Source: a virus
Virus record (IMG/VR): IMGVR_UViG_3300043398_000200
Span: 1 to 56,178 of that record
DNA length: 56,178 nucleotides
Reading direction: 5' to 3' (one strand)
Shown: positions 11,480 through 50,180 of the stretch, in pieces
Layout of the letters: every line of letters begins with the position of its first letter
Numbering within the stretch: position 1 is the first letter of the stretch
The notes under the pieces: generated by a model
The model's input: the letters and a program-made list of their open reading frames with translations, nothing else
Databases searched by the model: none
What the model was told of the DNA's origin: nothing
Program-made: the position numbers and the translations under genes

Positions 11480-11663
11480 ACCTGGCGTTGCTGCCACCGC
11501 TGTCCAGCGGGCGCTTGTGGTCCACGTCCTTGCCGTCGCCCTTGTGCGCGAGGCCAGCCTTGATCATGGCCGCCCGTGCACGGTTGCGTGCCATGCGGTG
11601 GCGCACCTGCTCAGGGCTGTTTTCGTACTCGGTGGCCCGTGTGTAATCCCGTGGTTTATTCAT
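11409..11663 (-). CDS. Small HNH-motif protein (84 aa)
   Basis: The ATG at 11663 follows the tail of the giant virion gene, overlapping it by 8 bp, so it is the last gene of the leftward late cluster. The core is KGDGKDVDHKRPLDSGG followed by NLRVRSVAANRGY, an HNH fold with the DH pair and the N...N elements. Such short proteins at the end of virion gene clusters are frequent in podoviruses; some may act in packaging, none is proven. The upstream open frame is low-quality arginine/serine text and was excluded. Its last 71 bp are antisense to the end of the primase-helicase gene. Confidence 0.75.
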   Translation of the reverse strand: MNKPRDYTRATEYENSPEQVRHRMARNRARAAMIKAGLAHKGDGKDVDHKRPLDSGGSNARSNLRVRSVAANRGYRRDSKNHPI

Positions 11664-31298: not shown

Positions 31299-32396
31299 TT
31301 AGCGAACGCGTCCTTCACGCTGAGCCGCGAAGATGTCAGCTTCGAGCCGCTTGGCCTCGGTGCTGCCGGCCTTGATCTGCCCCGTGCGAACAGCGGAGTA
31401 GAACTGACCGATTTCCCCGCGGGTCCATACCCGCTTACCGGACCCTTCCTGAGCGCCAGCCGGGCCAGGCTTTGCGGTGCCTGGCGCGATGAAGCCTTCC
31501 AGCGTCTTCCCAGCAGCCGGCGCAGGGGCCGATGCGGGAGCGGGAGGGGGCGTCACTGCTGCGTGTTCGTTCTGGTATCCAAGAAAAAACGCCACGACGC
31601 GGGATGCTTCGTGGGCCTGATACGCTTCGGTCAGCAGGTCACCGCGCACCCTTCCGGTGTACGGGTCCCTCTGATCAAGCCACTGCAGGAACCCCTGATC
31701 AGTGTTCTGCTGCTGCCAGTTTGGGACAGCCTCAGAAAGCTCATCAAAGAAACGTCCTGCCGTATTGCGCTGCATTTCTTCCTTCGCCGCCTTAGCGTCG
31801 TTGGATGTCTGTGCAAGCTGCTTTGCCACCGGCTGCAGGCGACGATCAACCTCGCTCAGCACGCTGCCGTTTTCCTCACGGGCAACGCGACGAACTACGT
31901 CAATGAGGTCTGCTCCGAACTCCTGAACTTCCTCGTCCTTGACGAGGCGCTGCCCCTGTGGCGCGGGGGCGGGCTGTGCCGGTGCAGCGGGCTGCTGTGT
32001 ACCGAGCGAGGCCAGGAGTGCCTGGGTCGAGGTCAGCTGGCTCGTAAGCTGGCGGACCTGATCGATCAACTGGTTGGTCTGCGCCTGAAGGCGTGGAACT
32101 TCGGCGTTATATTTGCCCTGCAGAACCTTGTACCGCTGCTCGAAGTCGGGCGCGGGTGCCGGGGTAACATTCGCCGGCGGCGCGGGCGTCGGTTCTGGCG
32201 AAGGGGCGGGTGTCTCGGCGGGCGCGGGAGCGGCGGCGACAGGCTGCTCAACCGGTGTCTCGGCAGGCGCAGGAGCGGCGGCGACGGGCGCGTGCGGGTC
32301 CGGCTCAGGCGGTGTCGGGTCTTTCCCGTAGACCTCCTTGCTCAACTGGTTGGCCCGGTCAATCTGTGCCTGTACGGCTTTCGGCAATGCGCTCAT
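31299..32396 (-). CDS. Scaffolding protein (365 aa)
   Basis: Immediately upstream of the coat gene. It has a disordered Pro/Ala-rich N-terminal third in which the segment VAAAPAPAETP occurs twice in tandem, a long coiled coil (YNAEVPRLQAQTNQLIDQVR), an acidic helical middle and a basic C terminus (RVWTRGEIGQFY ... FAAQREGRVR). A basic C-terminal end that docks to the coat protein is usual for phage scaffolds. Start ATG with AAGGTGA upstream. Confidence 0.82.
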   Translation of the reverse strand: MSALPKAVQAQIDRANQLSKEVYGKDPTPPEPDPHAPVAAAPAPAETPVEQPVAAAPAPAETPAPSPEPTPAPPANVTPAPAPDFEQRYKVLQGKYNAEVPRLQAQTNQLIDQVRQLTSQLTSTQALLASLGTQQPAAPAQPAPAPQGQRLVKDEEVQEFGADLIDVVRRVAREENGSVLSEVDRRLQPVAKQLAQTSNDAKAAKEEMQRNTAGRFFDELSEAVPNWQQQNTDQGFLQWLDQRDPYTGRVRGDLLTEAYQAHEASRVVAFFLGYQNEHAAVTPPPAPASAPAPAAGKTLEGFIAPGTAKPGPAGAQEGSGKRVWTRGEIGQFYSAVRTGQIKAGSTEAKRLEADIFAAQREGRVR

Positions 32397-32403
32397 GCGT
32401 ATA

Positions 32404-32655
32404 TCACCTTGGTTGTGGAACTGCTTTGTTCAAACGCTTCTCGAGAGTGTCACGCGCCGTACTGGCGGCGACGACGAAATCACGGATCGTAACGACTGCA
32501 CCAGCTGCGCGAAGCCGCTGTTCCTCGTTCCCACTGATGCATCGTTCAATCTCATCACGCTCTGCTTCTTTCAGCATCGCAACGACAACTTCAAAGTCCT
32601 GGTTCCCATGAAGGCTGGCCAGGGCCTGGAGTTGTCGTTGCGACAGCGGCTTCAT
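32404..32655 (-). CDS. Small helical protein upstream of the scaffold gene (83 aa)
   Basis: ATG at 32655 overlaps the preceding stop (ATGA); the in-frame TTG at 32673 is less likely. The product is all-helical and charged (LSQRQLQALASLHGNQDF, ERDEIERCISGNEEQRLR). It belongs to the capsid assembly module by position. Family not recognised. Confidence 0.65.
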   Translation of the reverse strand: MKPLSQRQLQALASLHGNQDFEVVVAMLKEAERDEIERCISGNEEQRLRAAGAVVTIRDFVVAASTARDTLEKRLNKAVPQPR

Positions 32656-32849
32656 GCGAAGGGGCGCAACCAACGCTGCTTGCGGGCCTTCACGTCGTCA
32701 GCGTCGTTGTCATCCACGACCGGTGCCGACTTGCCGTGATGCCCCGCCATGCGGTGCTCCACGGCTGCATGCCCCACCTGCACGTCTGCCACTCCAGCTG
32801 GGTTGGACAGCTTGTGCGACTTGACGACCTTGTTCCCCTTGCTGAGCAT
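32652..32849 (-). CDS. Small hypothetical protein (65 aa)
   Basis: ATG at 32849 shares its first base with the upstream stop (TGATG); a GTG three bases earlier is an equal alternative. The product is basic and His/Asp-rich (VGHAAVEHRMAGHHGKSAPV, DDNDADD). No family recognised. It is co-transcribed with the scaffold and capsid genes from the promoter at 33116-33144. Confidence 0.55.
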   Translation of the reverse strand: MLSKGNKVVKSHKLSNPAGVADVQVGHAAVEHRMAGHHGKSAPVVDDNDADDVKARKQRWLRPFA

Positions 32850-33073
32850 CACGCACCCGGTGCCGTGACATCGGCCGAGCGGCCGCCGTGGCCACCACTC
32901 ACGCCGCTGGTGCGGTTGGGCGGGATGTTGGTGTTGCCCTTGGTCGAGCCGAGAAACTTGCCACTGGGGCTGCCGCCGTGGCTCTCACCGCTGCCGCCGC
33001 CACCCTGGGACACGTTGGTGTTGCGGTCGGTGTTGCCCTTGGTTGGGCCGAGAAACTTGCCTGAAATACCCAT
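32849..33073 (-). CDS. Glycine-rich small protein with internal repeat (74 aa)
   Basis: An AGGAG site eight bases upstream fixes the ATG at 33073. The protein is almost fully disordered and contains a duplicated block: SGKFLGPTKGNTDRNTN and, 33 residues later, SGKFLGSTKGNTNIPPN, separated by a Gly/Ser run. It is the first gene after the internal promoter, so it may be made in large amount with the capsid. Possible decoration or linker protein; function unknown. Confidence 0.6.
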   Translation of the reverse strand: MGISGKFLGPTKGNTDRNTNVSQGGGGSGESHGGSPSGKFLGSTKGNTNIPPNRTSGVSGGHGGRSADVTAPGA

Positions 33074-33115
33074 GTTCGAACTCCTGTTTGGAATGCTCCA
33101 CACACGGTGGGGGTG

Positions 33116-33144
33116 AATATACTCGCGCTGTTTACAGTTTACAA
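33116..33144 (-). promoter_or_regulatory. Sigma70-like promoter before the capsid module
   Basis: On the minus strand TTGTAA (33144-33139) and TATATT (33121-33116) are separated by exactly 17 bases. The predicted start near 33108 lies in the only gap of this part of the late cluster, 35 bases before the gene at 33073. It would give extra transcription of the small genes, scaffold and major capsid gene. Confidence 0.55.
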
Positions 33145-33513
33145 ACCCATGCCGAGGCCAAAACTAGTCCGGTACCGGTCCACATAGCCGCCGGGGGGCT
33201 GCGAAGTGATCGTGAAGGCGTTGGAATCGGTATCCCCCGACCCGTTCGTGCCGGTCACAACGATACCTCCAAACACGCCAGTACTGGTCGGCGTACCCGA
33301 CAGAACGCCCGTACCAGTGTCAAAAGACACCCCTGTCGGCAGAGTGCCAGCAATCGAGTAGCTGGAGGCACTGGTGAAGTAGGCGCTGAAGTCTATCGGC
33401 GTCATGGCGACGTTGTAGGTCAGCGGCTGGTCCGGGATGGGGCCAGTAAAAGTCGGTGGTCCTACAACCGCCTCGCCGCCGGCGAACCCCAGGTTCATCA
33501 GAAAGGCGAGCAT
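33139..33513 (-). CDS. Ig-like (He_PIG type) domain virion protein (124 aa)
   Basis: ATG at 33513 overlaps the upstream stop (TGATG). After a hydrophobic start (MLAFLMNLGFAGG) comes a putative immunoglobulin-like domain with SYSIAGTLPTGVSFDTGTG then LSGTPTSTGVF, the classic He_PIG pattern, ending in a Gly/Tyr-rich tail. Ig-like domains on phage virions bind surfaces weakly or decorate capsids and fibres. The gene's end carries the -35 element of the capsid promoter. Confidence 0.7.
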   Translation of the reverse strand: MLAFLMNLGFAGGEAVVGPPTFTGPIPDQPLTYNVAMTPIDFSAYFTSASSYSIAGTLPTGVSFDTGTGVLSGTPTSTGVFGGIVVTGTNGSGDTDSNAFTITSQPPGGYVDRYRTSFGLGMGL

Positions 33514-34214
33514 CAGGCACCGGCCCCGCACGCACCAGCTACGAACTCAGGGATGTAGATCGAAGGCTCTGCTTCGATCGTCGGAGAGCCATTGACGGTG
33601 AAGTCACGCCCGTTCCCGCTGTAGTCCGTGGCGGCCTGCGCTGCCGTCGTTGCGCCGCGGCCGCGCGCGTACACGTTGAGGCTGGCCCCTTTTACAATGC
33701 GCCGGCGGTACCGCTGCGCGTCGATCTCCGCGGCAGTCCAGACAGCATCGGAGACAATGATGTCCTGGTACCGGGCATCTGCCCACCACGAGTTGAGCGC
33801 TGAGATACTGCCGATATAGATGGCGGTCATGGATGTATCGCCAGCCTGCAGTGTGGTCTGCGCAGTGACAACGGACGAGGCGTCGTCACAATACGCCCAG
33901 CCCGCTGTAAGCTGGTTGGCTCCACTACCTGCGCACTGCAGATACCACTGAAACCATCGGCTGGTCGCTGGGCGGGACGCAAAATTTCCACTGGAGCCAG
34001 AACTCAGCAGCACCATCGTGCTACTGAAATCGCCATACGCTATGCGGGCACCGTAATCAACCGCATTGCTGGCTATATCGACCAACTGCTGCGACTCGCC
34101 AGTGCCACGATCCGAGACAATGTAGCTCTTGCCCAGGATCGTGAACGACGTAATGCTGGGCAGGTTGGCGGACCTGCTCAGATACTGGCCGTTGGCTGAA
34201 ACTCGAAGGCTCAC
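33513..34214 (-). CDS. Concanavalin/LamG-like domain virion protein (233 aa)
   Basis: A beta-sandwich lectin-like protein: FTILGKSYIVSDRGTGES, the inner strands SRWFQWYLQCAG and MTAIYIGSISALNSWWADAR, and IIVSDAVWTAAEIDAQRYRR, the closing strand-helix element seen in LamG-like phage proteins. It may bind host or environmental glycans. GTG start at 34214 directly after the previous stop. Confidence 0.65.
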   Translation of the reverse strand: MSLRVSANGQYLSRSANLPSITSFTILGKSYIVSDRGTGESQQLVDIASNAVDYGARIAYGDFSSTMVLLSSGSSGNFASRPATSRWFQWYLQCAGSGANQLTAGWAYCDDASSVVTAQTTLQAGDTSMTAIYIGSISALNSWWADARYQDIIVSDAVWTAAEIDAQRYRRRIVKGASLNVYARGRGATTAAQAATDYSGNGRDFTVNGSPTIEAEPSIYIPEFVAGACGAGA

Positions 34215-35975
34215 TCAGGCTCCGGTGTATCCCTGCAGGTTAATCAGCACGCCGGTAGACGCAGTTGTCGAAGACTCCTTGATATACAGCGCCGTGTTGG
34301 CGGTGGACTTCAGCGGGACGGGGAAAACAATGGTGGCTGCACCCAGTGGGCCGACGAAGCCACGGAACAGCGCCGTGCCGCCCGAACCGTCCGTAACAAG
34401 AAACTCCGTACCCGTCGTCGGGTGAGAGTTGAACACCTGCATGCTGGTAAGGTAGTTACGGATACCGGCACCAGCCGCGCCCTTGGCTGAGACTTCCGTC
34501 GTAGTGACGAGGCCAGCAGCAGGAGCCGCATAATTCCAGCTGTTGGCTTCCGATTCATAGGGCTGCGTGATCTGTTTACGGTTCAGCGTCATGCGCGCTG
34601 CGCCAGCATCTCCCTCGTCCACCGAGTCAGTCGAAGTATCGTCGGCAAGATACCCGACTACTGCAATCTTGCTGGTGGCTGGGGTGAATGCCGCATCATC
34701 AACCTGCACCCAGGTCCCGTTCTCCTGGACGACAAACGTGCCAGCATTGGTAACGGCGTGCGACGCGACAGTGACCGTGCCAGTGATGGCTACCTGACCA
34801 GTCGAGTCGTTGGCAATGGTGACACGCTGGACACCCGTACCTGACGCACCGTTGCCCATCGACGGAGCGACACCGTTGATCTGTGCAACATTGACCGCGC
34901 TGTTGGCAGTGATGGACACTGTACCGCTGACTGGCTGGGTGACGGCGGAACCGTCCACCTTTACAGCCGTCATTGATGCAATACCCTGGATGGTGATCAC
35001 ATCCGAGGATGCCGTGCCGGCCACACCGAGGGCGGGCTGCTTGGCAGCGGTGGACGCACCAGAGGGCAGGTCGGGCGTCGTCAGCAGCTTGTTGGTCAGG
35101 GCTGGCTGGTCCGTAGCCAGGACGACACGCAGTGTGCCAGCTGACTTGGTGCCTGAGTTGGTATCAACCGTAGTACCGTTGAGCTTGTCGATCTGTGCCG
35201 TGGTCCACAACCGACCAGCCGACATCTGCAGCATCGAGTAGTCAAGATCAGACCCCGCCGTGTCGGCCGGCGACGCACGCTGGACGGCCATCGCCGGGAC
35301 ACCCACGTCAGCGTCGGCGCTGGCCACATCCTCGGCCTTGGCAATGCTGGTCGCACCCGAAGCAATGGTGGCCTGCACGGCGAACGTGCCGGCGTTGGTG
35401 ACGGCGTGAGAGGGGACCGAGGCCAGGGACACAGGCTGTGTCACCGCCGACCCATCGACCTTCAGGGCGGTCATGGAGGCCGTACCCTGAACGGTGATCA
35501 CATCGGCTGAAGGGGTCCCCGCCACTCCAAGCGCCGGCTGCTTTGCTGCGGTGGCTGCACCAGATGGAAGTGGCAGGGACGCCACGCTCACAGGCTGAGT
35601 GACGGCGGAGCCATCCACCAGCACCGCCGTCATCGAGGCGATACCCTGGATGGTGATCACGTCAGCTGAAGCAGTACCAGCCACCCCCAGGGCGGGCTGC
35701 TTGGCGGCCGTGGACGCGCCCGAAGGAAGGGGCAGGGACACCACGCTGACTGGGTGCGTGACGGCAGAGCCATCAACCTTCACAGCCGTCGCATTGGCCC
35801 CAGTATTGGCCAGCGTGACCTGGAGCGGCGCGGCGGAACTGATGTCCGTGGCAGAACCGTCGGCACCCTGCTGGATCTTGACGCGCTGGACTTTTACCCC
35901 GCCACCGATGTCGTCCGTGGAAAGAACGTCCCCACTGCCGACCGTTACGCCGTTCAAAATCGTATTGTCAGACAT
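34215..35975 (-). CDS. Repeat-containing virion protein (586 aa)
   Basis: The N terminus (DDIGGGVKVQRVKIQQGADG) is a common opening of phage structural proteins of unknown position. The middle consists of three repeats of about 53 residues with the pattern PSGASTAAKQPALGVAGT, DVITIQGIASMT and VDGSAVTQPVS, plus shorter SHAVTNAGTF repeats. The C-terminal domain (AGAGIRNYLTSMQVFNSHP, TEFLVTDGSGGTALFRGF) looks like a compact beta domain. Probably fibrous or decorating. Confidence 0.7.
   Translation of the reverse strand: MSDNTILNGVTVGSGDVLSTDDIGGGVKVQRVKIQQGADGSATDISSAAPLQVTLANTGANATAVKVDGSAVTHPVSVVSLPLPSGASTAAKQPALGVAGTASADVITIQGIASMTAVLVDGSAVTQPVSVASLPLPSGAATAAKQPALGVAGTPSADVITVQGTASMTALKVDGSAVTQPVSLASVPSHAVTNAGTFAVQATIASGATSIAKAEDVASADADVGVPAMAVQRASPADTAGSDLDYSMLQMSAGRLWTTAQIDKLNGTTVDTNSGTKSAGTLRVVLATDQPALTNKLLTTPDLPSGASTAAKQPALGVAGTASSDVITIQGIASMTAVKVDGSAVTQPVSGTVSITANSAVNVAQINGVAPSMGNGASGTGVQRVTIANDSTGQVAITGTVTVASHAVTNAGTFVVQENGTWVQVDDAAFTPATSKIAVVGYLADDTSTDSVDEGDAGAARMTLNRKQITQPYESEANSWNYAAPAAGLVTTTEVSAKGAAGAGIRNYLTSMQVFNSHPTTGTEFLVTDGSGGTALFRGFVGPLGAATIVFPVPLKSTANTALYIKESSTTASTGVLINLQGYTGA
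34921..35745 (-). repeat. Three ~160-bp coding repeats in the virion gene
   Basis: Three copies encoding the same ~53-residue unit lie at about 34925-35075, 35420-35580 and 35585-35745. The two right-hand copies are adjacent with a period near 159 bp. Shared DNA such as GGTGATCAC and GCGGGCTGCTTGGC is visible, but many synonymous differences show that the duplication is not recent. Confidence 0.7.
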
Positions 35976-35991
35976 TTCAGATCCCCTATGC

Positions 35992-36330
35992 TCAGGCGTT
36001 CAGCCAGGCCAGCTCGTTGTTCCAGTAGGTGGTGTCTTCTTCCACACCACCGTCAACATCCGTGACATAGATGAACCCGCACCCCGCACCAAGGAAAAAA
36101 TCCATCACGTCGTGAAGGTTCGCCGCACTGACGCCGTTCACCAGGGCAGAGAACTTGCTGTTGGCGAAGTTGCTCATCCAGGCAGGCAACGTGGGGTATG
36201 TAGGTGAGCCATGCCCGTTGGGGATGTACTGCTCGTACATGACCATGATGTCCACGACATTGGCTATCTGCTGGTGATCGGACGCGGTGTCATACGTCCC
36301 GCCCTGATGGATTGCTACGATGGCTGCCAT
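35992..36330 (-). CDS. Hypothetical virion-region protein (112 aa)
   Basis: A small alpha/beta protein starting AAIVAIHQGGTYDTASDHQQ with a central IMVMYEQYIPNGHG and a C-terminal FFLGAGCGFIYVTDVDGG. It lies four bases after the 1860-aa gene and 16 bases before the repeat protein, so it is co-transcribed with the adhesin-like genes. Family not recognised. Confidence 0.65.
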   Translation of the reverse strand: MAAIVAIHQGGTYDTASDHQQIANVVDIMVMYEQYIPNGHGSPTYPTLPAWMSNFANSKFSALVNGVSAANLHDVMDFFLGAGCGFIYVTDVDGGVEEDTTYWNNELAWLNA

Positions 36331-36334
36331 ATGC

Positions 36335-39300
36335 TTACCCGTTGAATACTTTCACGACTACATGGCCACGCATTGAGCCAATCAGAATTGACTGTCCTGC
36401 GGGGACCAGGGTGCCAGGACCGACAATGCGAACATCAATCGGATAGGTGACATGCCGCGCCGGATTGCCCTCCGGGTTCCACCGTGCAAAGCCATAGTCA
36501 AACTCACGCATGTAGGTCCCATCCGCCTGCGGCGAGGAATGCTGCGACTCGGTACGCGCCTTACCGAGGTAATGCCGGCCTGCGTCCACGTTCGGATATG
36601 TATAGGGGATGCCAGTAGCGCGGTTAACTGAGAACTCCGGGTGCCACACGAAATCATCGGGCTTGTAGTTCTCGAAACCTCCAATGGGGCCAGCATAGCC
36701 TTCCTGGTACCCATAACCAGGGCGTGACATGTGGACACAGCCACCACGCTTACTGGCGAAGCACAGATATGCCGCGAACCAGTACATGCTGCCTTCCCCA
36801 GGGGGGCTATACTGGCCAGTGTAACCGTTCACGTCCATGAGCGCCTGGCGCCCATCAGCCATGATCGTGTTGAACGAGGCCAGCATGTACGGTCCGTGCG
36901 TCTGGTCGTTGAAGCACTTGAATGAACTCGGCGCACCTATCCAGTTGCCGCCGCGACAGGAAATGTCGATGCGCTCCGCGTAGGTTCCATCAGAAGCACC
37001 AGACAGGCGCGGCGGGTTGGTGTACCAGTCAATAGTTCCGAAGTTGCCAGTCCAGCTGGTGCCATTGTTCCACGCCATCTTCCCGGTGATGGCGCGAGTC
37101 TGTGCAAGCAGATCCCTACAGCCGCTCGACAGCGTGTCATTCACCTTGACGTTGATGTCCCCCTGAGCCACATCCGCAGGCCAGCCACCATGATGGTCGG
37201 CATACTCCTGCTGGCTATACCCACTGCGCAGATTCGCCTGCAGGTCGTCATAGAACGTGGCGTCGTACACGTCCATGAAGTTAACGCCCATATTGGAGTT
37301 AGGGGCCTTGCCAGTGGAGTTGAGATCCAGTACCCCCTTCTGCCACTTTGCAATGAACGTGCTGGCGGTTTCTCCAACCCCCGCGCCGCTGGTCCCAGTC
37401 GTTCCGCCTGGAAATGGCGGGTATACATAGACAGTATAAGCTGGATTGCCATTCTCCAACTCAAGGACATAGTTAGAACCGTTGGTCGTCGCAAGCCAGT
37501 GGTTATTACTGAGAACCCTCAACACATCCGTCTCGAACTGGTTGCCGCCAGCCGTGTTGTACCGGGGGAAGCTGAAGTCCCAAGTGTAGTGGGCAAGCTT
37601 CAGTGAGGGGTTCACTGCCTTCACTGCAAGGAAGTCCGCGTGAATATCATTGTTGCTGAAGTCCGTCGCAAAACTCGACACAACTGCCATGTCGATGTGC
37701 TTCAGGAACTCGAAGAAGGTGCCGTTGTTAGGCCCCAACTGCCAGTGGTTCCGACCGTAGGTGCCTTCATACAGACCGATGGCCATTGCGCCGATGCGCG
37801 GGAATAACTCAGTGGTGTCACCACTGCCGGAAACCCTCAACGCAACCAGACCGTCACCTTCGGGTAGCGTGTAGCTCCCACCAATGGCCCCGTTATTGAT
37901 GGCCGCATCACCAATGAGCGCACTGTTGTGTGTCAACCGCTGGAAATCGGTGAGGTCGATTACCTTCGCCCCATTCCCCCTCGGGTTCAGCCACGCACGT
38001 CCGCTCACAAAGTCACGGTGCAGCACTCCATTACCAAGTCGTGAAGCAGTCTGGAACCCTTCCAGCGCACTACCAAGCCATCCAGCGCGGTTGATCGCAC
38101 CACCGTACATCTCATCGTAAAACTGGTTGGCGGGTGGGCCAGCACTTGTCGTCGTGCCAAAATACCCAGGCCCCATCAACACAACACACTGCGCATAACG
38201 TGCTTCACGCAGGTTTCCAGATGTCGGCAAGTCGCGGGCATCGACTTTCAATGGGCGATCCGCGGCGGTCAGCGAAGCGTCTACCGCCCACTTGTAGCGC
38301 GCCAGGAAAGTCAGCGTACCGTCAGTCGCCTCCGACCCGTTTGGCCCAAGGCCGTTTTCGAGCATGGCGAAGTCAGCCATGTTCATCAGGTGTGTCCAGT
38401 TATTCGGGTCCGGCGCACCGTTGTTCCAGGTCGCGTACCCGTTGCAGCCCCAGCCCTTGTTGGGGTTGATCGTCCGGCCGTAAGTAAACCAATCGGACTC
38501 TCCTGCCCTGAAGTCGGCCTGAGTCCACGCCCCTCCAGTCGGGTTGTAGTCATAAGTCTGACTGTAGTAAGTACCAGGGTTGGTGTACGAGAACACGTTG
38601 TCGCAGAGAAAGTAATCTATCGACGTTGCTTTCGAGGCGGCGGGGTCTGCGCCGCCGCCGGTGATGTAGCAACGATTGGTTGCAAAGGCCGCGTACTGGT
38701 ACGGCCACAGCCCACCATACTGCCCTACGAAATGCGTCGGGTTGATCAGCCAAAAGTTTGGAATATCCCACCCGGATATTACATGGGTACCACTGCGCCC
38801 CACCTGCCACAGGTCCCAGTTGGCCGCGACGACAGCGTTCTTCCAGTCCTGAACATAGGCCCCACCATCGGCCCGCCGCTCGTTGAAGTTCCCGTACTGA
38901 ACGATCTTGGTACCAACGAGAGATCGAGACTTGATATCGTCGTAAGCCTGCTGGCGCGTCATCCCCTCGCCGTTGGGGTATGCAGCAGGGTAGTTCCCTC
39001 CAATCTCAATGATGTGAAACTTCGCCGCAATCGCCCGCTGCGTGGCGTCCGGGACCTGGTTTGTCCCAGTAAAGCCGCCAGCGATGCGCGGATATGGGTG
39101 GTTGAGGCCGGGGAAAGTGGTCGAGGTCGGCGGCGGCGTAGGCGACGGAGTCGTGCCACCCTGCTTGGAGCGCACGTAGGCCGTCATCTCGGTCCAGTGC
39201 TGCACCCAGGTCAGGTCCTCTGGCATGTTGGGGCGGCCCTGGCCGCCCTGACCAAAGAAAATGCCGTCGATGTTTGGAAACGCGTTGTACCACGCATCGA

Positions 39301-41917
39301 TTCGCGTCTTCAGCTGCGCGCGGGTCAGCATCTGATATGGGATTGTCCCGGTCACATCCAGTGACGTGACGTGCCCAAGGACCTTGATACCCCGTATATG
39401 GCACTGGTCAATATGTGCCTGCAGCTGCGGGTTGGGGTTGGAGTAGCTGTCGTAGTAGTAGTTGTCCGCATCGAAAATGCAAAACACCACACTTCCAGCT
39501 GGCATCTGGTAGATCTGCGCCCACTGCGCAGCATTGTTCGTGGGGAAGCGGAAGATGATCTTGTTGGACGGCTGTGAGATAGGTGGGTCGAGGGTCACAC
39601 CTGTCACTGCTGCACTCTGCGCAGACTCGTTCACCGGGTCGGCCTGGTCAAATGCCGACACCCGATAACTGTGCACTTCACCCGCCGCCATGCCTGTCAC
39701 ATCGTAAGTGGTACTGGTTGTCGTGGCGAGGTAAGAACCATCCTTGAACACCTTGTATCCACCCACCCCAGTGCCTGCATCCGACGAAGCACTCCACTGC
39801 AGTCGAGTCGCAGACTGGCTCAGGGCCTGTGCAGACAGGTTGGTGGGTACCGTGGGGGCCGTCAGGTCGGCAGTCTCACCACCCTGAATGATTTCCAGGG
39901 CACACAGCAGGCCATTATCCGAAGTACCAATGAGCCGCAGGTGCAGGCTGCCAGTACTGATGTGGTGGGTGTACGACTTCTTGAGTGTCGCATTGCTGCC
40001 GACCACCCCGCCAATATCAACACCCGTCTCCTTGACGGTGCCGTTCATCTCAACATTAAACACGCGATGCCCAGCAGTCCCAAACACCGGGTCGGCAAAG
40101 TACAGATTGATGGTGTAGGTGTCGTCAGCAGGCACCGCTGCATCGACAACCAGCGTAGGGATGTCCCATCGACTGGTCTGATAGAGCGGCTGCCTGGCGG
40201 CGTCCGAGCCGGTAATCGTTGCACCACTGTCATTGACGTAGGATGTGGGGGAGAGAACCCCCGTATCCGCCAACCAATTCAAACCGCCTGGGTCAGTGTA
40301 AGTCGGGCCACCAATGTTCACCCTGAAGGTGAACGGATCGCCGCTACTGGTCAAGGCCGGCAGGGTGAACGTACGGACGGCACTTTCATCCGACGAAAAT
40401 CCTGCGTGGTCGGTAGCTACGGTCGTGATGCTGAAGTTCTCTCGCTCCGCCCCGACATCGTAGTAGGACACGTCGGTGGCCAGTGTGAGCGCATACCCAG
40501 TGTAGGTACCCTGACCGTTGTAGGCCATGCGACAGGCCAGCACGTCCGTACTGAAAGGAAGCTCGGCCGTGGCACACGACACCCATGTCGGAGAACTTGG
40601 ATTGGTGGCGTAAAAGACCTCGAACCGGGTCAATGCCACGCGCACGATCTTGAGCGCACAGGCTACAGCAACGGACAAATCCGCAAGCAGCTGCGGGGTA
40701 CTGTTGTTGGTCAGGCGGGCATAGACCCGCAGCTTATTGATGCTGCCTGCGGTCGTCGTATGCAGGGCTGCAATGAAGGCCGCACCACGATCCGCCGAAT
40801 TACGGACCTCAATGCCAATAGCCCCATTGTTGGCGTCGATGCTGGACGTAACCGCAGTGACGTTGATCTGCTGCGAAAAATCTCCGCGGACAAAGCGGCC
40901 GCGCAAGTACACAGTATCCTGCGTGCCGAAATGACTCCCGCCAGTGGTCATGGCGATTGTCGAACCACTGTCCGACCCCTGCGCGCCGCCGAGGTTGTAG
41001 TCTGCCTCCGCAGTCAGTACCACCGGCTCGGGCATATCCCCAAGAGCCGCGCCGAAATTGCGGAAGGCGTAGGAACTGGTCCCCGACACCGCTTCTCCAC
41101 CACCCGGAGTAGCATCTGCGACGCGCGGCTGCTGCACGAGCCAGCCAAGGGGGCTGCCCCAGGTAGCGACCTTTATCAGCCCTGTAGGCTGCGGTGGCGC
41201 ATGCTGATCGACCGTACCGGTCCCAGGAACGGTCACAGCAATAGCGGCGGTCCTGTCAGAGCGCAATCCTACAGCGTCAACAGCATATGCCTGATAGAGG
41301 ACGGCGTGGTCCGTAGTCTGCACTGCCCCCGGATCGTCAAGCGGAAACCCAGGCGTCGAAAGCTCAGCAAGAACAGACGAGTCGCTGGGATTGATCCGCT
41401 CAACGACATAACCAACCACCGAAACATTGTCGATGGACCCACGCGACGTGATGTGCGGAACCCCTCCAACGATGGCGACAGCAAAATCAGCCGGCTTGGT
41501 TGGTTTCTCCGTGTCTGTAGGAACAGGTGGAGTGTCGTCTGCACCTGGGCCATACAGGTAGGTGTAGTAATTAGCAATGCTTGCGGGAATGAACCCGCAG
41601 GCCACAGTAACCTGCGCATCATCTGCCGGCGTCATGTATCGCGCCAGGCGCGTGCGACGCGAATAGTTGTCTGCGATTGCACGAATGCTGGCCAGCCCCA
41701 GTGTCACTGTGCTGCCAATGGCCTCACCATCCGGCCCAAAAATCAGCCGCATCTGCTCGGTCACATCTGAAAGGCCAAGCTTTGCATCCTGCGCACGCAG
41801 GTAATCCCGATCCTCGTCGGTCAGAAACCGCTTCAGTCGGCCACGGGCGGCCAACCCAAGCATGTACGTACGAAGTTCCTCGTACGCTACAACGATTGGA
41901 TCATCTGCGTGTGCCAT
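36335..41917 (-). CDS. Multi-domain virion protein with FN3, malectin and three TIM-barrel hydrolase-like domains (1860 aa)
   Basis: ATG at 41917 overlaps the previous stop. Visible parts: a helical N terminus (~1-130); an FN3-like domain (~135-235); a concanavalin-like beta region (~280-490); a malectin-like domain (~526-679, FRVNIGGPTYTDPGG, YTINLYFADPVF); an FN3 domain (~684-777); a spherulation-specific-family-4-like barrel (~786-919, IRGIKVLGHVTSLD, NIDGIFFGQGG); a Pro/Thr linker; and two further GHL15-like glycoside hydrolase barrels (~939-1362, SIDYFLCDNVFSY; ~1371-1860, MGVNFMDVYDATFYDD). In the first barrel the usual GIFFDE is GIFFGQ, so that unit may be inactive. A polysaccharide-binding or -degrading appendage is the likely role; substrate unknown. 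Confidence 0.75.
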   Translation of the reverse strand: MAHADDPIVVAYEELRTYMLGLAARGRLKRFLTDEDRDYLRAQDAKLGLSDVTEQMRLIFGPDGEAIGSTVTLGLASIRAIADNYSRRTRLARYMTPADDAQVTVACGFIPASIANYYTYLYGPGADDTPPVPTDTEKPTKPADFAVAIVGGVPHITSRGSIDNVSVVGYVVERINPSDSSVLAELSTPGFPLDDPGAVQTTDHAVLYQAYAVDAVGLRSDRTAAIAVTVPGTGTVDQHAPPQPTGLIKVATWGSPLGWLVQQPRVADATPGGGEAVSGTSSYAFRNFGAALGDMPEPVVLTAEADYNLGGAQGSDSGSTIAMTTGGSHFGTQDTVYLRGRFVRGDFSQQINVTAVTSSIDANNGAIGIEVRNSADRGAAFIAALHTTTAGSINKLRVYARLTNNSTPQLLADLSVAVACALKIVRVALTRFEVFYATNPSSPTWVSCATAELPFSTDVLACRMAYNGQGTYTGYALTLATDVSYYDVGAERENFSITTVATDHAGFSSDESAVRTFTLPALTSSGDPFTFRVNIGGPTYTDPGGLNWLADTGVLSPTSYVNDSGATITGSDAARQPLYQTSRWDIPTLVVDAAVPADDTYTINLYFADPVFGTAGHRVFNVEMNGTVKETGVDIGGVVGSNATLKKSYTHHISTGSLHLRLIGTSDNGLLCALEIIQGGETADLTAPTVPTNLSAQALSQSATRLQWSASSDAGTGVGGYKVFKDGSYLATTTSTTYDVTGMAAGEVHSYRVSAFDQADPVNESAQSAAVTGVTLDPPISQPSNKIIFRFPTNNAAQWAQIYQMPAGSVVFCIFDADNYYYDSYSNPNPQLQAHIDQCHIRGIKVLGHVTSLDVTGTIPYQMLTRAQLKTRIDAWYNAFPNIDGIFFGQGGQGRPNMPEDLTWVQHWTEMTAYVRSKQGGTTPSPTPPPTSTTFPGLNHPYPRIAGGFTGTNQVPDATQRAIAAKFHIIEIGGNYPAAYPNGEGMTRQQAYDDIKSRSLVGTKIVQYGNFNERRADGGAYVQDWKNAVVAANWDLWQVGRSGTHVISGWDIPNFWLINPTHFVGQYGGLWPYQYAAFATNRCYITGGGADPAASKATSIDYFLCDNVFSYTNPGTYYSQTYDYNPTGGAWTQADFRAGESDWFTYGRTINPNKGWGCNGYATWNNGAPDPNNWTHLMNMADFAMLENGLGPNGSEATDGTLTFLARYKWAVDASLTAADRPLKVDARDLPTSGNLREARYAQCVVLMGPGYFGTTTSAGPPANQFYDEMYGGAINRAGWLGSALEGFQTASRLGNGVLHRDFVSGRAWLNPRGNGAKVIDLTDFQRLTHNSALIGDAAINNGAIGGSYTLPEGDGLVALRVSGSGDTTELFPRIGAMAIGLYEGTYGRNHWQLGPNNGTFFEFLKHIDMAVVSSFATDFSNNDIHADFLAVKAVNPSLKLAHYTWDFSFPRYNTAGGNQFETDVLRVLSNNHWLATTNGSNYVLELENGNPAYTVYVYPPFPGGTTGTSGAGVGETASTFIAKWQKGVLDLNSTGKAPNSNMGVNFMDVYDATFYDDLQANLRSGYSQQEYADHHGGWPADVAQGDINVKVNDTLSSGCRDLLAQTRAITGKMAWNNGTSWTGNFGTIDWYTNPPRLSGASDGTYAERIDISCRGGNWIGAPSSFKCFNDQTHGPYMLASFNTIMADGRQALMDVNGYTGQYSPPGEGSMYWFAAYLCFASKRGGCVHMSRPGYGYQEGYAGPIGGFENYKPDDFVWHPEFSVNRATGIPYTYPNVDAGRHYLGKARTESQHSSPQADGTYMREFDYGFARWNPEGNPARHVTYPIDVRIVGPGTLVPAGQSILIGSMRGHVVVKVFNG

Positions 41918-42207
41918 CAGAACAACCCGATCATGTTGACTGCCGTCGTGACCGAACTCCACACCCGCCGCACACGGCAGGGGACGAAGCCGCCGGTGGG
42001 GATGATGAAGGTCACAGGCTCGGCGTCGTCATTGCCCGCAGGAGTCACCTTGACGTTCCCCCCCGTGCCGACGAACACAAACTGATCCTTGTTCTCACCG
42101 TTGTTGTTGGTGAGATCCACCGAGTCGCTCGGGCTGATCGCCTTTGCGCACATGGGGAACCCCGTGACGAAGAAGGGTCCTGGGGTCTCGTTTGCTTCTA
42201 TCGCCAT
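41917..42207 (-). CDS. Small beta-rich virion protein (96 aa)
   Basis: Composition and pattern (ITPSD-type ISPSDSVDLTN, FVFVGTGGNVKVTPAGNDD, FIIPTGGFVPCRVRRVWSS, TTAVNMIGLF) match a widespread small phage structural protein, often considered a spike base or decoration subunit. It is followed without gap by the 1860-aa appendage gene, which may attach through it. The ATG is supported by position five bases after the preceding stop. Confidence 0.7.
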   Translation of the reverse strand: MAIEANETPGPFFVTGFPMCAKAISPSDSVDLTNNNGENKDQFVFVGTGGNVKVTPAGNDDAEPVTFIIPTGGFVPCRVRRVWSSVTTAVNMIGLF

Positions 42208-42212
42208 GCGCC

Positions 42213-42380
42213 CTACTCCGTTTTCCTGGCGAAGCGCACCGATGCCGCCCGCGCCCTCAAGATGTTTTCCTGGACCTGCCTGACACGCGTCGGCTCATCG
42301 ATTGCCTTCTGCGCCGCGTCTACCGCCTCACGCTGGTCAATGGCCTGTCGCCGCTGACTGACTGTTGACTCAAATTTCAT
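42213..42380 (-). CDS. Small charged helical protein (55 aa)
   Basis: ATG at 42380 overlaps the upstream stop (ATGA). The product starts MKFESTVSQRRQAIDQREAV and continues as one long amphipathic, Arg/Glu/Gln-rich helix to RFARKTE. It fills an otherwise unexplained 169-bp gap in a cluster where genes are packed end to end, which supports it as real. Function unknown. Confidence 0.65.
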   Translation of the reverse strand: MKFESTVSQRRQAIDQREAVDAAQKAIDEPTRVRQVQENILRARAASVRFARKTE

Positions 42381-42637
42381 CGCCGCCTCGTGGCCGCGTT
42401 GGTTGCCGGGTTGTAGTCGAAGTCGGCGGGCTTTCTGCGAGTCGCCCGCGCCGCGCGGTCCTTCGCCCGTTCCGCCGCCGTCATCCGATCCCGTGCCCGA
42501 CCAGTGGCCGTCAACTCACCTTTGGCGTTCATATGGCCACGCTTCTTCAGGAGGGCAATGGCCTCATCCCGTGACCCAACCTGGGCAGTGAGCCGGCTCA
42601 CCAGCTGGTGCCGCCCCATGAACTGCTGGGTCGTCAT
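42377..42637 (-). CDS. Small basic protein after the portal gene (86 aa)
   Basis: A basic helical protein (SRDEAIALLKKRGHMNAKGE, ATGRARDRMTAAERAKDRAA) ending in TNAATRRR. Its start overlaps the portal stop and its stop overlaps the next ATG. The charge suggests nucleic acid or assembly contacts. Family not recognised. Confidence 0.65.
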   Translation of the reverse strand: MTTQQFMGRHQLVSRLTAQVGSRDEAIALLKKRGHMNAKGELTATGRARDRMTAAERAKDRAARATRRKPADFDYNPATNAATRRR

Positions 42638-45425: not shown

Positions 45426-46822
45426 GCGAGATCACATACGACGCGCCGGCCACGGTCGCGGCGATGATGATGAGCGACGCGCTGGTGCGCGTACTCACCG
45501 GCCCGGTGGGCAGTGGCAAGACAACCGGCATGGTCATGGAGTGCGCGCGGCGCATGGCCCAGGAGAAGCCGGACCACAACAAGATCCGCAAGACCCGCGT
45601 CGCCATCGTCCGCAACACGAACCAGCAGCTGCGCCAGACCGTCATGCCTGAAATCGAAAAATGGCTGATGCCTGCTTTTCGCTACAAGGTCACGGACAGC
45701 ACGCTGCAGTTCGACTTCCCGCTGCCTGACGGCACGCGCGTGCAGAGCGACTGGATGTTGATCCCGCTGGACACGCCCCGCGACGTGCAGCGCCTGCTGT
45801 CGCTGAACCTGAGCTTCGCATGGGTTTCGGAATTCCGCGAAGTACCAATCGAGATCATCGAAGCTCTGCTCGGCCGCGTTGGCAGGTACCGCTCACTGGG
45901 GGTGGATGAGTCCACCTTCTACGGCGTGATGATGGAATCCAACATGCCGGACGAGGACTCGGCCTGGTACCAGAAGCTGGAAGTTGAACTGCCGAAGGAC
46001 TGGCGCATGTTCAAGCAGCCCAGCGGTCTGGACCCACTGGCCGAGAACGTGGAGAACCTGCGCAAGGGCTACTACCAGGACCTGATTGCAAACAACACTG
46101 AGGACTGGTCCGACGTGTATGTCCGCGCGCAGTACGGCAAGAGCCTTGCTGGCCAGGCCGTGTTCCGCACCAGCTTCAAGCCTGATTACCACGTCGTACA
46201 CGAAACGCTGAAGCCCAACCCGCACCTGCCGTTGATGGTGGGTCAGGACTTTGGCCGCACGCCGGCCAGCCTCATTGGACAGATCGACTCCCGCGGCAGG
46301 CTGGTGGTCTTCCGCGAGATCACATCCGTTGGAACAGGCATCGAGCAATTTGCGATCACGCAGCTGCGCCCGGTAATGTTCAACACCTACGCCGGAATGT
46401 CGTCATTCATGATCGGTGATCCCGCCGGCCGCGAAAAATCACAGGTCGGTGAGGAGTCCCCGTTTGACTGCCTCAAGCGCCTGGGCTTCATGATCTATCC
46501 CGCGCCCACCAACGACATCGAGCCGCGCCTGCGTGCCGTCGAGCAGATGTTGCTGCGTCAGTCAGACGGTGGACCGATGGTGCTGATCGACGCCGCCAAT
46601 TGCCCCACACTCGTGACGGCAATGAAGTCGAAGTACCGCTACAAGCGCAAGCTCAACGACGAACTGGACGAGAAGCCTGACAAGGCACACCCGTGGTCAG
46701 ATGTCGCGGACTGCCTGCAGTACATGTGCCTGGGTGTTACCGGCAACTACATGGCCAAGGTGATGCGGGACTCACGGGCGCGCGTACGCAGACCCCCAGT
46801 GCCCGTGGCGGGATGGACCTAA
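45422..46822 (+). CDS. terL: Large terminase subunit (ATPase and nuclease)
   Basis: The packaging motor. Walker A is TGPVGSGKTT (K33); the catalytic glutamate region is FAWVSEFREVP (E137). The RNase H-like nuclease has its metal aspartates in GQDFGRTP (D276), IGDPAGREKS (D333) and HPWSDVADCLQYM (D427/D430). At 466 aa both domains are complete. GTG start overlapping the small subunit stop. The stop TAA at 46820-46822 overlaps the convergent glycosyltransferase stop. It is on the opposite strand to the portal and all structural genes. Confidence 0.93.
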   Translation: MSEITYDAPATVAAMMMSDALVRVLTGPVGSGKTTGMVMECARRMAQEKPDHNKIRKTRVAIVRNTNQQLRQTVMPEIEKWLMPAFRYKVTDSTLQFDFPLPDGTRVQSDWMLIPLDTPRDVQRLLSLNLSFAWVSEFREVPIEIIEALLGRVGRYRSLGVDESTFYGVMMESNMPDEDSAWYQKLEVELPKDWRMFKQPSGLDPLAENVENLRKGYYQDLIANNTEDWSDVYVRAQYGKSLAGQAVFRTSFKPDYHVVHETLKPNPHLPLMVGQDFGRTPASLIGQIDSRGRLVVFREITSVGTGIEQFAITQLRPVMFNTYAGMSSFMIGDPAGREKSQVGEESPFDCLKRLGFMIYPAPTNDIEPRLRAVEQMLLRQSDGGPMVLIDAANCPTLVTAMKSKYRYKRKLNDELDEKPDKAHPWSDVADCLQYMCLGVTGNYMAKVMRDSRARVRRPPVPVAGWT

Positions 46823-47532
46823 CGGTAGTGCTTGTCGATCCAGGGGATCGTTTCACTGAGTGTATCTGGAAAATATTTTCCATTGAAGAAGACGATACGC
46901 GCCGCTTCCGGCAGCTGGTACTCGGTGTGCTTCAGGTGTTCACGGAATGAGTAGACCCCATCCTTCCAGGTCCAACGCTTCTCGTTGCGCTCGCCCAGCA
47001 GGTAGCTGATCCACGCCTGGTCCGTGCCGTAGTATCCCGCCTGCAGTGCGCGTGACATGGCAAACCCTGGGTCCTTCACGAACCGGTCCCACACTTCTGC
47101 GCGAGCACCGGAATTCATCATCCACATGCTGCCGTTGAACGGCGTGCGCCGGCCGTCCTCACCCCAAATCACAAAGTCTTCTTTCCGGTTCCACACCGGC
47201 GACATGTCGCCCGTGATCACTGCATCGAGGTCGAGTGACACGAACCGCTCCCCGATCAGGGTCTTCATCTCGGCAGAGAAGGCGCGCAGCCGACGGTAGC
47301 AACTGGGGCTGCCTGCGCCGTATATCGACTCGGTGGTGGAGAAGTCCTCCCACAACGGGATGACATTCACGTCCTTGCCGAAGCCGCGGGTCATGTCGGT
47401 GATGACGTGGAACTGATGCGGATGCGGGTAATGCCGCTTCACCATCCGCTGCAGGATGTTTACGTGCCGGGGAGTGAATTGCGAATGGTAGTCCTTCGGC
47501 GGCCGCCAGAGCCAGGTGACGACGTGAAGCAT
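46819..47532 (-). CDS. Glycosyltransferase, GT8-like DxD type
   Basis: The order HVVTWLWRP at the start, FHVITDM, the central FVSLDLDAVITGDM with a DxD-like LDLDA metal site, PFNGSMWMMNSG and YYGTDQAWISYLLGE corresponds to GT-A fold family 8-like transferases. It likely transfers a sugar from a nucleotide donor. It is the last gene of the leftward glycan cluster; start directly after the preceding stop. Donor and acceptor unknown. Confidence 0.78.
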   Translation of the reverse strand: MLHVVTWLWRPPKDYHSQFTPRHVNILQRMVKRHYPHPHQFHVITDMTRGFGKDVNVIPLWEDFSTTESIYGAGSPSCYRRLRAFSAEMKTLIGERFVSLDLDAVITGDMSPVWNRKEDFVIWGEDGRRTPFNGSMWMMNSGARAEVWDRFVKDPGFAMSRALQAGYYGTDQAWISYLLGERNEKRWTWKDGVYSFREHLKHTEYQLPEAARIVFFNGKYFPDTLSETIPWIDKHYR

Positions 47533-48270
47533 TCAGAGCACCCTGACATACGCTGAACGGATCGGCTGCTTCGACTGAAAGTCTTCGGCCTCCCGTTTCG
47601 CCTGGAGCCTGGCCACGTATTTTTTATGGTGTTCGTCGCGGCTGAGAGAAGTGGTATCGGCATCAGCAATGACGGGCTGTCCTTCTCGGGTTCGCCGTCC
47701 AAACCCCAGGGAAACCACATCACCCCAGTGGAACTCAGGAACCACCCCCCGCAGCTGTCGTAAGAACTGGTTATCCCCTCCGTAGCCTCCGCCTCCATGA
47801 ACCGTAAGATCGAGATCATATCCTCCGACCCGCCAAAAAGCAGAATTTCGTACAAGGAAGGTATTGATGTGAATTTTCCTGAACCCATCGGGAAATTCCC
47901 TCTCAATCGTGTAGTGCTTGCGCGGGTCCCAGTCCTTCATGAGCATGCGCGCCATCGCCTCCATCGGCATGACTATATCGATGTCGCTCATGAACATCCA
48001 CGGATCTTCCCCGTCCGCCTTCGCCTGCTGCGCGCCGATATTGCGCGCCTCATGCATGTTGAACGGCAGATCGACGGGTATGCGGTACAGCTGCAGCCGC
48101 AGGTCACACTGGCGCAAAATGCTGGTGGGTGGCTCGGCACTGCCATCGTCCACGACAATCAGCCGCACCCGGTCCCGCACCGCGGCCGGATACATGTTCC
48201 AGTGAGTCACCTGGAGCCGCAGCATCTCCGGGTTGTTGTAGTAGGGGTAGATCATCACCAACTCGTTCAT
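47533..48270 (-). CDS. Glycosyltransferase, GT2 family-like
   Basis: The N-terminal Rossmann part has LIVVDDGSAEPP (the family 2 nucleotide-binding VDDGS), NMHEARNIGAQQAKADGEDP, and the metal site MFMSDIDIVMP. Downstream RKIHINTFLVRNSAFWRVGG and YDLDLTVHGGGGYGGDNQF are the acceptor-side region with the GxDxxF-like element. A typical 245-aa GT-A enzyme lacking membrane anchors. ATGA-type overlap with the upstream gene. Confidence 0.82.
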   Translation of the reverse strand: MNELVMIYPYYNNPEMLRLQVTHWNMYPAAVRDRVRLIVVDDGSAEPPTSILRQCDLRLQLYRIPVDLPFNMHEARNIGAQQAKADGEDPWMFMSDIDIVMPMEAMARMLMKDWDPRKHYTIEREFPDGFRKIHINTFLVRNSAFWRVGGYDLDLTVHGGGGYGGDNQFLRQLRGVVPEFHWGDVVSLGFGRRTREGQPVIADADTTSLSRDEHHKKYVARLQAKREAEDFQSKQPIRSAYVRVL

Positions 48271-48911
48271 GTGTGAGTCATCTCCTTGAACTTCTTGTAG
48301 TCGATGACCGGGAATGCATCGATCAGGGACCGGTGATTCACGTTGAAGACTTCAATGCGCCGCTTGGCAAACTGCTGCGCAATGTCGGGAAAGTGTGTGG
48401 CCCACCGCTTGAGCCTCGCGTTGTGGGACCCACCGTCCGCATTCCACGGATTCGCACCGTGCCAGTACGGCTGCCCCTCGGGTCCGCGCTGCATGTCAAA
48501 CCCCAGCAGGAACACCCGTTTTGGCTCCAGCTGATAGGCGTAGTTGAGCGCGCACACACCGGAGTTCTCGCCATTGAGGTTGAGCCGGTCGGGGCACATA
48601 TAGCTCGGGTCGCCAGGGCTGTTGTGAAACAGATACGTATACGGCAACCCCACCGGTGTCGCCTTGGGCGGCCGCGCATTGAAGTTCTTGAGAATCGAGT
48701 CCCGCAGCCAGATCTCCCTGATGTGCCCCTGACCGCACCAAATGGGGTAGCAGTGCTCGGCAGCGAGCCGGTCCATCGTGAGCGCAATGTGCGGCTTGCT
48801 GTGAAGCGCCGCGCCATTGACGCCGATAAGCAGGCCGCGGTTCTCCAGGCCGGTAAGCCGGTACTTGATGCAGGACCAGCCACTGGCCAGGACGATCACG
48901 GTGTCAAACAT
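48267..48911 (-). CDS. MptE/GT42-like Rossmann protein
   Basis: Opening FDTVIVLASGWSC (a VLASGxS-type nucleotide loop), then LLIGVNGAALH, IALTMDRLAAE, and later GENSGVCALNYAYQLEPKRV followed by FLLGFDM. This series (GxG loop, GVNxA, SGxxAL, LLGFDM) occurs in MptE-like/DUF115 and sialyltransferase-like GT42 proteins. A role in making or transferring a nucleotide sugar or glycan is plausible by context. Substrate unknown. Confidence 0.65.
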   Translation of the reverse strand: MFDTVIVLASGWSCIKYRLTGLENRGLLIGVNGAALHSKPHIALTMDRLAAEHCYPIWCGQGHIREIWLRDSILKNFNARPPKATPVGLPYTYLFHNSPGDPSYMCPDRLNLNGENSGVCALNYAYQLEPKRVFLLGFDMQRGPEGQPYWHGANPWNADGGSHNARLKRWATHFPDIAQQFAKRRIEVFNVNHRSLIDAFPVIDYKKFKEMTHT

Positions 48912-49509
48912 GGAATGCCAACCTCACGTATTTTTCTGCCTGAGCCAACACATCCGGCTTGCCGAACGCAACAACCATTTCTTCGAGCCAGCCCCGCTTC
49001 GTGCGGCGCACGTCGCAGACGATCATACTGCCGGCTTTCATGCATGCCTTCACTGCCGCAATGTAGTCGCTTGGCGGGATGTGGAACGGCCACGCCGCAA
49101 AACTCCACACCAGATCGAAGCAGCCCTGCTCCGCGCGCACGAACTCCCCGGTGCTGATGTGCCTGAACTTCGTCACGCCGTTGGCCTTGAGGAAGTCGGC
49201 ACTCACTGCCGCATTGCTGAACGTATGCGCGTGTGCCATGACCTCGGGCGGATCGTCAATACCATCTACGAGTGTGAAGTCAGCCAGAGGATGGTCGGCA
49301 GCAAGACGTACCTCCATGTGGCCCATCCCAGGGCCAATCCCACACACGCGGTGTAAATCACGGCCCCCAAGAACAGCAGCCACCGATCCGTACGTCGATT
49401 CCACAGAGGCTTCGAATTCTGGCTGCCATTTGTTGAAGTTGTGTCGTGCATTGGATACCTCCCCACGTTGGATGGACAGATACTGGAATGCCTCGGGGCT
49501 GATGATCAT
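48904..49509 (-). CDS. Class I SAM-dependent methyltransferase
   Basis: ATG at 49509 overlaps the preceding stop (ATGA) and lies after AAGGGGAAG. The 201-aa protein has motif I HRVCGIGPGMGHMEVRLA, an acidic end of strand 2 in FTLVDGIDD, motif IV-like FDLVWSFAAWPFHIP and late strand SMIVCDVRRTKRGW. No target-recognition domain is present. Embedded among glycosyltransferases, it probably methylates a sugar or small acceptor and not DNA. Confidence 0.8.
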   Translation of the reverse strand: MIISPEAFQYLSIQRGEVSNARHNFNKWQPEFEASVESTYGSVAAVLGGRDLHRVCGIGPGMGHMEVRLAADHPLADFTLVDGIDDPPEVMAHAHTFSNAAVSADFLKANGVTKFRHISTGEFVRAEQGCFDLVWSFAAWPFHIPPSDYIAAVKACMKAGSMIVCDVRRTKRGWLEEMVVAFGKPDVLAQAEKYVRLAFHV

Positions 49510-50180
49510 AGCTTCCCCTTGTTCAGGTACATGCCGACATGCCCCAGGTCCAGGGCCTGCCTCCCTGCCGATGCAATGCGGTCGGCAAGGCAAGTAGCCG
49601 TGGGGCCGGCACAGAGAATCACCCGATGGCTGCGCGTGTCCATCACCTTCTCGAACAGTTCATCGATCTGCTCGTAGGAATGTGCGTAGCTGCACTCTAC
49701 GAACTCCACGTCGGTGGATCCTGTGTCGAGAAGAAACTGCGGGGTGAGGCTGCGTACTCCGTTGGCGACCAGCGCAACACGTTTGCCGGCCCACAGGGAC
49801 ACGACCGACCGCCAGTAGTCCACCGTGTCGATGTCCGGGGCTGAGTCAGGGCGGGAGATGAATGCGGAGTAGTAGGTCGCCGTCTCGTGGAGGAACGGCA
49901 GGAACTTCGCTGCATATCGAAGCCAGATCGGGTTCTTCGGCGCACCGTCACAGATCCTCGGTATACCGACCAGGCAGTGCCTGCCGGCGTTGTAGATCAC
50001 GTCCTGCAGTTCTTCCATGATGCCCGGCACGGCCTTCTGCGAAACGCACCGGCGGCCGTACATCAGCTTCAATTCTCCATCCCCGAACCGCGCGATGGAA
50101 GCCCCGTCATGCAGGGCCTTGAGAGTCTCACGTTCTGAGACCACGGTAGGGTATTGCCGCCGCCCATCCCCCTGTGCCAT
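49506..50180 (-). CDS. GT-D fold glycosyltransferase
   Basis: The N-terminal signature GASIARFGDGELKLM, RCVSQKAVPGIMEELQDV and LVGIPRICDG, with VILCAGPTATCLADRIASAG and QALDLGHVGMYLNK at the end, are those of the GT-D (DUF1792) glycosyltransferases of bacterial glycoprotein and polysaccharide pathways. It is the first of the five glycan genes in transcription order. The GAGG-containing leader precedes the ATG. Confidence 0.82.
   Translation of the reverse strand: MAQGDGRRQYPTVVSERETLKALHDGASIARFGDGELKLMYGRRCVSQKAVPGIMEELQDVIYNAGRHCLVGIPRICDGAPKNPIWLRYAAKFLPFLHETATYYSAFISRPDSAPDIDTVDYWRSVVSLWAGKRVALVANGVRSLTPQFLLDTGSTDVEFVECSYAHSYEQIDELFEKVMDTRSHRVILCAGPTATCLADRIASAGRQALDLGHVGMYLNKGKL

Follow-up and report, generated by a model that had tools for sequence, protein, structure and literature searches.

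A probable viral spike fibre with two GHL15-type domains apparently inserted in a spherulin-4/GH135-like barrel that continues in the next gene

Half-barrels are proposed ancestors of TIM barrels, and very few natural barrels are known to be divided between two genes; a search of the literature for a naturally two-gene barrel returned only laboratory splits and single-chain interruptions. A case of interruption is the GH148 enzyme EngU (PMC5725463), naturally one chain, in which a CBM4 module placed after beta4 leaves the barrel halves far apart, and whose activity is regained when a single cell produces the halves as separate chains. Another barrel family, spherulin-4/GH135, is represented by Sph3 of Aspergillus, a one-chain (beta/alpha)8 barrel with catalytic Asp166 and Glu167 (PMC10485009), its catalytic set being completed by the acid/base Glu222 (PMC10485009, PMC12054363). 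GH135 enzymes that are catalytically dead still bind polymer and can serve as lectins (PMC8546845). Regarding virion spikes, those on the head of the gene transfer agent RcGTA are made of a pentameric base plus a flexible fibre, through which they bind the host capsule (PMC7296036).

The window analysed here is the whole of a metagenome-derived IMG/VR virus record of 56,178 bases. On its minus strand, the gene P0001 (Table 1) forms a single open frame, as the sequence-only reading had proposed, and its start codon is backed by the overlap of its ATG with the TGA of the upstream gene as TGATG. With moderate confidence, we interpret the product as the fibre of a capsid-vertex spike in which two GHL15-type domains would be inserted in a spherulin-4/GH135-like domain, the second half of this domain being a separate 112-aa protein.

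Table 1. Positions in the window of the features discussed, with the evidence for each (aa, residues of P0001).
Feature	Position	Strand	Evidence
Modular gene of the probable spike fibre, P0001, 1860 aa	36335..41917	-	open frame; TGATG overlap with upstream gene
N-terminal region, aa 1-140, no known family	41498..41917	-	position only
Malectin domain by homology, aa 530-669	39911..40330	-	Pfam PF11721 E=1.8e-17; PDB malectins 1e-6
Fibronectin type III domain by homology, aa 683-776	39590..39871	-	Pfam, PDB and Gordonia matches
Predicted N-terminal half (beta1 to alpha4) of spherulin-4/GH135-like barrel, aa 781-920	39158..39577	-	profile, hhalign
G889-Q890, in place of Sph3 catalytic Asp166-Glu167	39248..39253	-	alignments
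Pro/Thr-rich linker, aa 921-936, left border of the putative inserted block	39110..39157	-	sequence
First GHL15-type domain (predicted), aa 937-1366, D1106 and E1187	37820..39109	-	blastp L043 2e-17; HMM 48 bits
Second GHL15-type domain (predicted), aa 1369-1860, D1557 and E1648	36338..37813	-	hhalign E=2.8e-4, whole domain; glocal z=5.0
112-aa ORF, predicted C-terminal barrel half (beta5 to last helix)	35992..36330	-	22.4 bits, rank 1/498 ORFs
Spike base protein, 96 aa, RCAP_Rcc01079 family (NF048002)	41917..42207	-	NCBIfam and PHROG

The N-terminal region of P0001, which begins MAHADDPIVVAYEELR, gave no match in family searches and no viral relatives were found for it; its position suggests that it is probably the attachment part. 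The malectin-like domain claimed from the letters alone was recovered by the Pfam and PDB searches, and its identity is certain as judged by homology. Two fibronectin type III-like units had also been claimed, and one of them stands: its Pfam match (4e-4) lies below the cut-off, and the matches to the FnIII domain of chitinase A1 (1.6e-8) and to minor tail proteins of Gordonia phages (44-50% identical) make the assignment certain at the level of homology. Neither the other candidate unit (aa ~140-236) nor the proposed concanavalin-like region (aa ~240-520) found a match in Pfam, PHROG or PDB, and these two claims are unconfirmed. The fibre would be a chain of sugar-binding modules, including the malectin and fibronectin type III domains and probably a lectin-like region.

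The 96-aa protein encoded directly upstream matches NF048002 (E=7.6e-12) with 45.4 bits against a cut-off of 28. A base gene of the Rcc01079 family adjoins the gene of a large sugar-binding fibre, in agreement with the RcGTA head spike (Rcc01079 base, Rcc01080 fibre; PMC7296036). On the contrary, P0001 is about six times longer than the RcGTA fibre, has hydrolase-like domains and shows no N-terminal Leu-Gly star peptide. Since P0001 adjoins a head-spike base gene, a head spike is likelier than a tail spike, and P0001 is probably a capsid-vertex spike fibre, produced along with the GTA-type base protein, its head location being deduced from this neighbour. That it is instead a tail spike or side fibre appears rather unlikely. 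A place on the tail would suit the PHROGs name of the upstream 96-aa product, 'tail fiber protein' (1.3e-8), the existence in RcGTA of tail fibres that bind polysaccharide as well (PMC10218006), and the lack in P0001 of the base-binding peptide of the RcGTA fibre. Against it, the upstream gene scores above the cut-off of a curated family of spike base proteins, typified by a protein located on capsid pentamers (PMC7296036), and the cassette is found between the portal gene and the scaffold gene, at a distance from the tail genes.

Relatives of the portal and capsid proteins were found at 64-74% and 68-84% identity, respectively; P0001 is absent from all those records, and the relatives whose portal proteins are 64-74% identical lack the block from P0001 to the capsid-side genes. 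Portal and scaffold genes are separated by ~10 kb here and by ~1.3 kb in the relatives whose contigs cover the region; the spike cassette is therefore specific to this virus among the latter. No close relatives of P0001 were found in the collections searched, and back-translated peptides of the barrels recovered no relatives from IMG/VR and genomes.

Within the portal-scaffold stretch (31299-42637, minus strand), the small genes at 32849-33103 and 32404-32673 are shared with relatives, while the spike cassette is not. The same strand encodes a 130-aa protein with a He_PIG domain (33139-33531; Pfam 4.8e-9), whose C-terminus, FGLGMGL, resembles the Leu-Gly star peptide that tethers the RcGTA head fibre to its base; this protein is a possible further ligand for the spike base. 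A 586-aa protein (34215-35975, minus strand) with repeats around 'STAAKQPALGVAGTASADVITIQG..VDGSAVTQPVS', a weak DUF match and no other family is probably a further fibre of the spike cassette. Separate from the head-spike candidate, a 505-aa tail spike (24799-26316, minus strand) carries at its C-terminus a peptidase S74 chaperone domain (Pfam 2.6e-7).

The region that follows the fibronectin type III domain of P0001 belongs to the spherulin-4 family, as had been noticed, even though it comprises just half a barrel. A direct search of the window with Pfam PF12138 gave no match. Profiles were then built from 9-12 spherulin-4 (PF12138) members taken from genomes, and aa 781-920 scored 31.5 bits against the 12-member profile (best shuffle 7.9), with an hhalign E of 1.1e-8. 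The strand and helix names used here derive from the alignments and from the established order of barrel elements, without a model. The match starts at beta1 and ends after alpha4, at the Pro/Thr linker, and the gap to the first GHL15-type domain is of only 16 residues, so that this part of P0001 does not encode beta5 to beta8. Also in agreement with the earlier claim, the family motif GIFFDE reads GIFFGQ, G889 and Q890 replacing the Asp166/Glu167 pair of Sph3. In view of this loss, and as judged from the alignment, a GH135-like barrel lacking its nucleophile cannot be a normal GH135 hydrolase any more.

The missing strands are found in the 112-aa ORF, which starts 4 nt past the stop codon of P0001 in a different frame. 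When the spherulin-4 profile was run over the 498 stop-to-stop ORFs of the window, this ORF and P0001 ranked first and second, the next-best ORF reaching 4-6 bits, and their profile ranges are adjacent without overlap. Alone, the 112-aa protein aligns with spherulin-4 from beta5 to the C-terminus (hhalign E=3e-7), and its E33 (36232-36234) corresponds to the acid/base Glu222 of Sph3. For searches only, aa 781-920 were joined with the 112-aa protein, giving an hhalign E of 6.6e-12 across 217 columns and, against a broader profile, 56 bits and an E of 9.4e-14 across 216 columns. In tblastn against 72,556 plasmids, the joined query gave one match, weak by itself (E=0.8), to an annotated spherulation-specific family 4 protein that aligned across the join; among Pseudomonadota genomes it returned nothing convincing. 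Together, both genes match the whole Sph3-type barrel and keep its acid/base Glu, although, unlike Sph3, they do so as two polypeptides, with ~940 residues between the halves and with Gly/Gln in place of Asp166/Glu167.

This disposition bears on the proposal of the sequence-only reading that P0001 carries three complete tandem barrels on one chain. Each of the three regions matches a hydrolase family and two full-length GHL15-type domains are indeed recognized; nonetheless, the first region ends after alpha4, a 16-aa linker and GHL15 follow, and beta5 to beta8 lie in the next gene, beyond the coordinates given in that reading. The location of this second half refutes the proposal, to which we attach hardly any likelihood.

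The split might also be thought an artefact of assembly or sequencing, either by fusion of a spherulin-4 fibre with the GHL15 fibre of a second strain or by a frameshift that made the end of the gene. The record being metagenome-derived, and the near-identical contig L002 ending before P0001 so that no second copy confirms it, this has to be considered, yet it seems very improbable given that (i) the block finishes with the natural C-terminus of a GHL15 domain and the ORF behind it starts neatly, (ii) the junctions share no long repeat capable of misleading an assembler, the best 14-nt match being of 11/14 and equalled by 82 of 400 random pairs, and (iii) several stops occur in the frames upstream of the 112-aa ORF. 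In its own frame, stops are found a few codons upstream, the 112-aa frame itself being fully open. Direct repeats at the two junctions, sought as insertion scars, were likewise not above chance.

Between the barrel halves, the two GHL15-like domains that had been claimed are both supported, the second more weakly. The Pfam model PF14885 gave no match at E<=10 to either of them, nor did Pfam, PHROG, NCBIfam and PDB searches with each domain alone, and aa 781-920 showed no similarity to them. A DNA pattern was derived from a motif of the first domain (Asp-Glu, ten residues, Trp-Leu-Gly, then Ala and Asp/Glu-Gly), which occurs once in the window and in none of its shuffles. In the genome collection, the pattern retrieved one chance hit and one true relative, a secreted Gammaproteobacterial protein (L043) that aligns with the first domain by blastp (27% identity over 349 aa); its matches in IMG/VR were chance ones only, nearly all within one conserved, unrelated phage gene. 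A genome search yielded further relatives (L048-L051), two of which, L049 and L051, match PF14885 at 1.8e-12 and 2.2e-10. Against a profile built from the five relatives, aa 939-1358 score 48 bits, whereas none of 2000 shuffles exceeds 4.9. The second domain aligns with the GHL15 profile across its full length, and its glocal z was obtained with the first domain left out of the profile, control regions of P0001 giving ~0. Homology of the first domain to GHL15 appears clear by way of these intermediates, and it is moderately supported that the second is a full-length, more diverged domain of the same type; both have diverged below Pfam detection, with family links running through intermediates.

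GHL15 (PF14885) and the five relatives are co-linear with the P0001 domains across the whole domain, and all share the Asp of FxxDN, the Glu of LE and the C-terminal module GV..R.F..G....NP. On the contrary, the P0001 domains are diverged, occur as two tandem copies and stand on a phage structural protein. Both keep the layout of the family, in which an Asp behind the fourth strand is followed some 80-90 residues on by a Glu (D1106/E1187 and D1557/E1648). The earlier statement that these two domains keep acidic residues is consequently right except for the residue indicated in the second one, since MDVYD contributes D1552, which does not align with the active site, the aligned acid being D1557 in TFYDD. 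A bacterial GHL15 query gave no match at E<=1 among phage records, PF14885 had none at 1e-6 among 399 Pseudomonadota genomes, and the second domain as query found nothing convincing in Pseudomonadota genomes. AlphaFold predictions of the first domain, alone and with two relatives, reached a mean pLDDT of ~29 both times because too few relatives were supplied; statements on the fold therefore rest on family homology. Most likely, the GHL15-type domains would be the working part of P0001, binding and cleaving a host surface polysaccharide so that the virion reaches the cell; in the fibre as a whole, the malectin and fibronectin type III modules would provide binding and the GHL15-type domains cleavage. 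Nothing in these results shows the processive or multi-substrate depolymerase suggested by the sequence-only reading.

As in EngU, the spherulin-4/GH135-like halves are parted by a block inserted within the barrel, although here it lies between alpha4 and beta5, contains two hydrolase-like domains, and the chain is naturally broken. We infer as the simplest history that the linker, both GHL15 domains and a stop codon entered an older domain of the spherulin-4/GH135-like type, the first half staying in the fibre while the right-hand remainder gained, or already had, a start codon and came to be translated apart as the 112-aa protein. The third-position GC content (GC3) offers a weak hint in this direction, the two halves (0.78 for aa 781-920 and 0.76 for the 112-aa gene) being closer to each other than to the intervening GHL15 block (0.68-0.69). 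A fibre homologue in uninterrupted form was not found in the collections searched.

Tip exchange by recombination is frequent among fibre genes, and it is quite possible that the 112-aa gene is only the dead, decaying leftover of an old spherulin-4 tip after a module swap, in which case only the GHL15 domains would matter. Loss of the catalytic Asp/Glu of the first half is what would be expected without constraint, and the collections searched gave no other instance of this split. Against such decay, the 112-aa frame is fully open and starts just past the stop codon, in a manner suggestive of translational coupling, while its product retains the Glu of beta6, the strand YVTD and, at the end, the motif YW..EL.

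More tentatively, the half-barrel of the fibre might be completed in trans by the 112-aa product; the capsid spike would then bear two active GHL15 hydrolases on a GH135 platform that is catalytically dead and lectin-like. Considering that dead GH135 enzymes bind polymer (PMC8546845) and that the halves of EngU work apart (PMC5725463), a two-piece platform of this kind may survive, the interrupted barrel being at most that. If so, it would be nature's version of the half-barrel co-expression experiments with EngU and HisF. The locus in any event provides a ready gene pair for asking whether a split barrel persists and assembles. Insertion inside an old tip would be a phage route to new enzyme tips, and hydrolase-like domains of an uncharacterised family are here placed on a probable head spike rather than on a tail spike.

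GH135-like domains occur also in Rothia phage Spartoi gp21 and in gene 46 of the virus Rctr41k, both intact, on a single chain and with the catalytic DE present, unlike P0001. Gene 46 (L068:2825-4804) combines its spherulin-4 domain with what by eye are a lipoprotein-like start and beta-helix-like repeats, while gp21 (L069:3788-4876), next to minor tail proteins, is annotated only as hypothetical.

Elsewhere in the window, a 2906-aa protein (11656-20376, minus strand) with a weak match to the LPD39 polyvalent-protein family and an HExxH motif seen by eye (AVTHETVHAA) is probably a giant internal virion protein. Between the terminase and the early genes, four adjacent genes (46819-50180, minus strand) look glycosyltransferase- and methyltransferase-like by eye and possibly act in surface or virion glycan modification.
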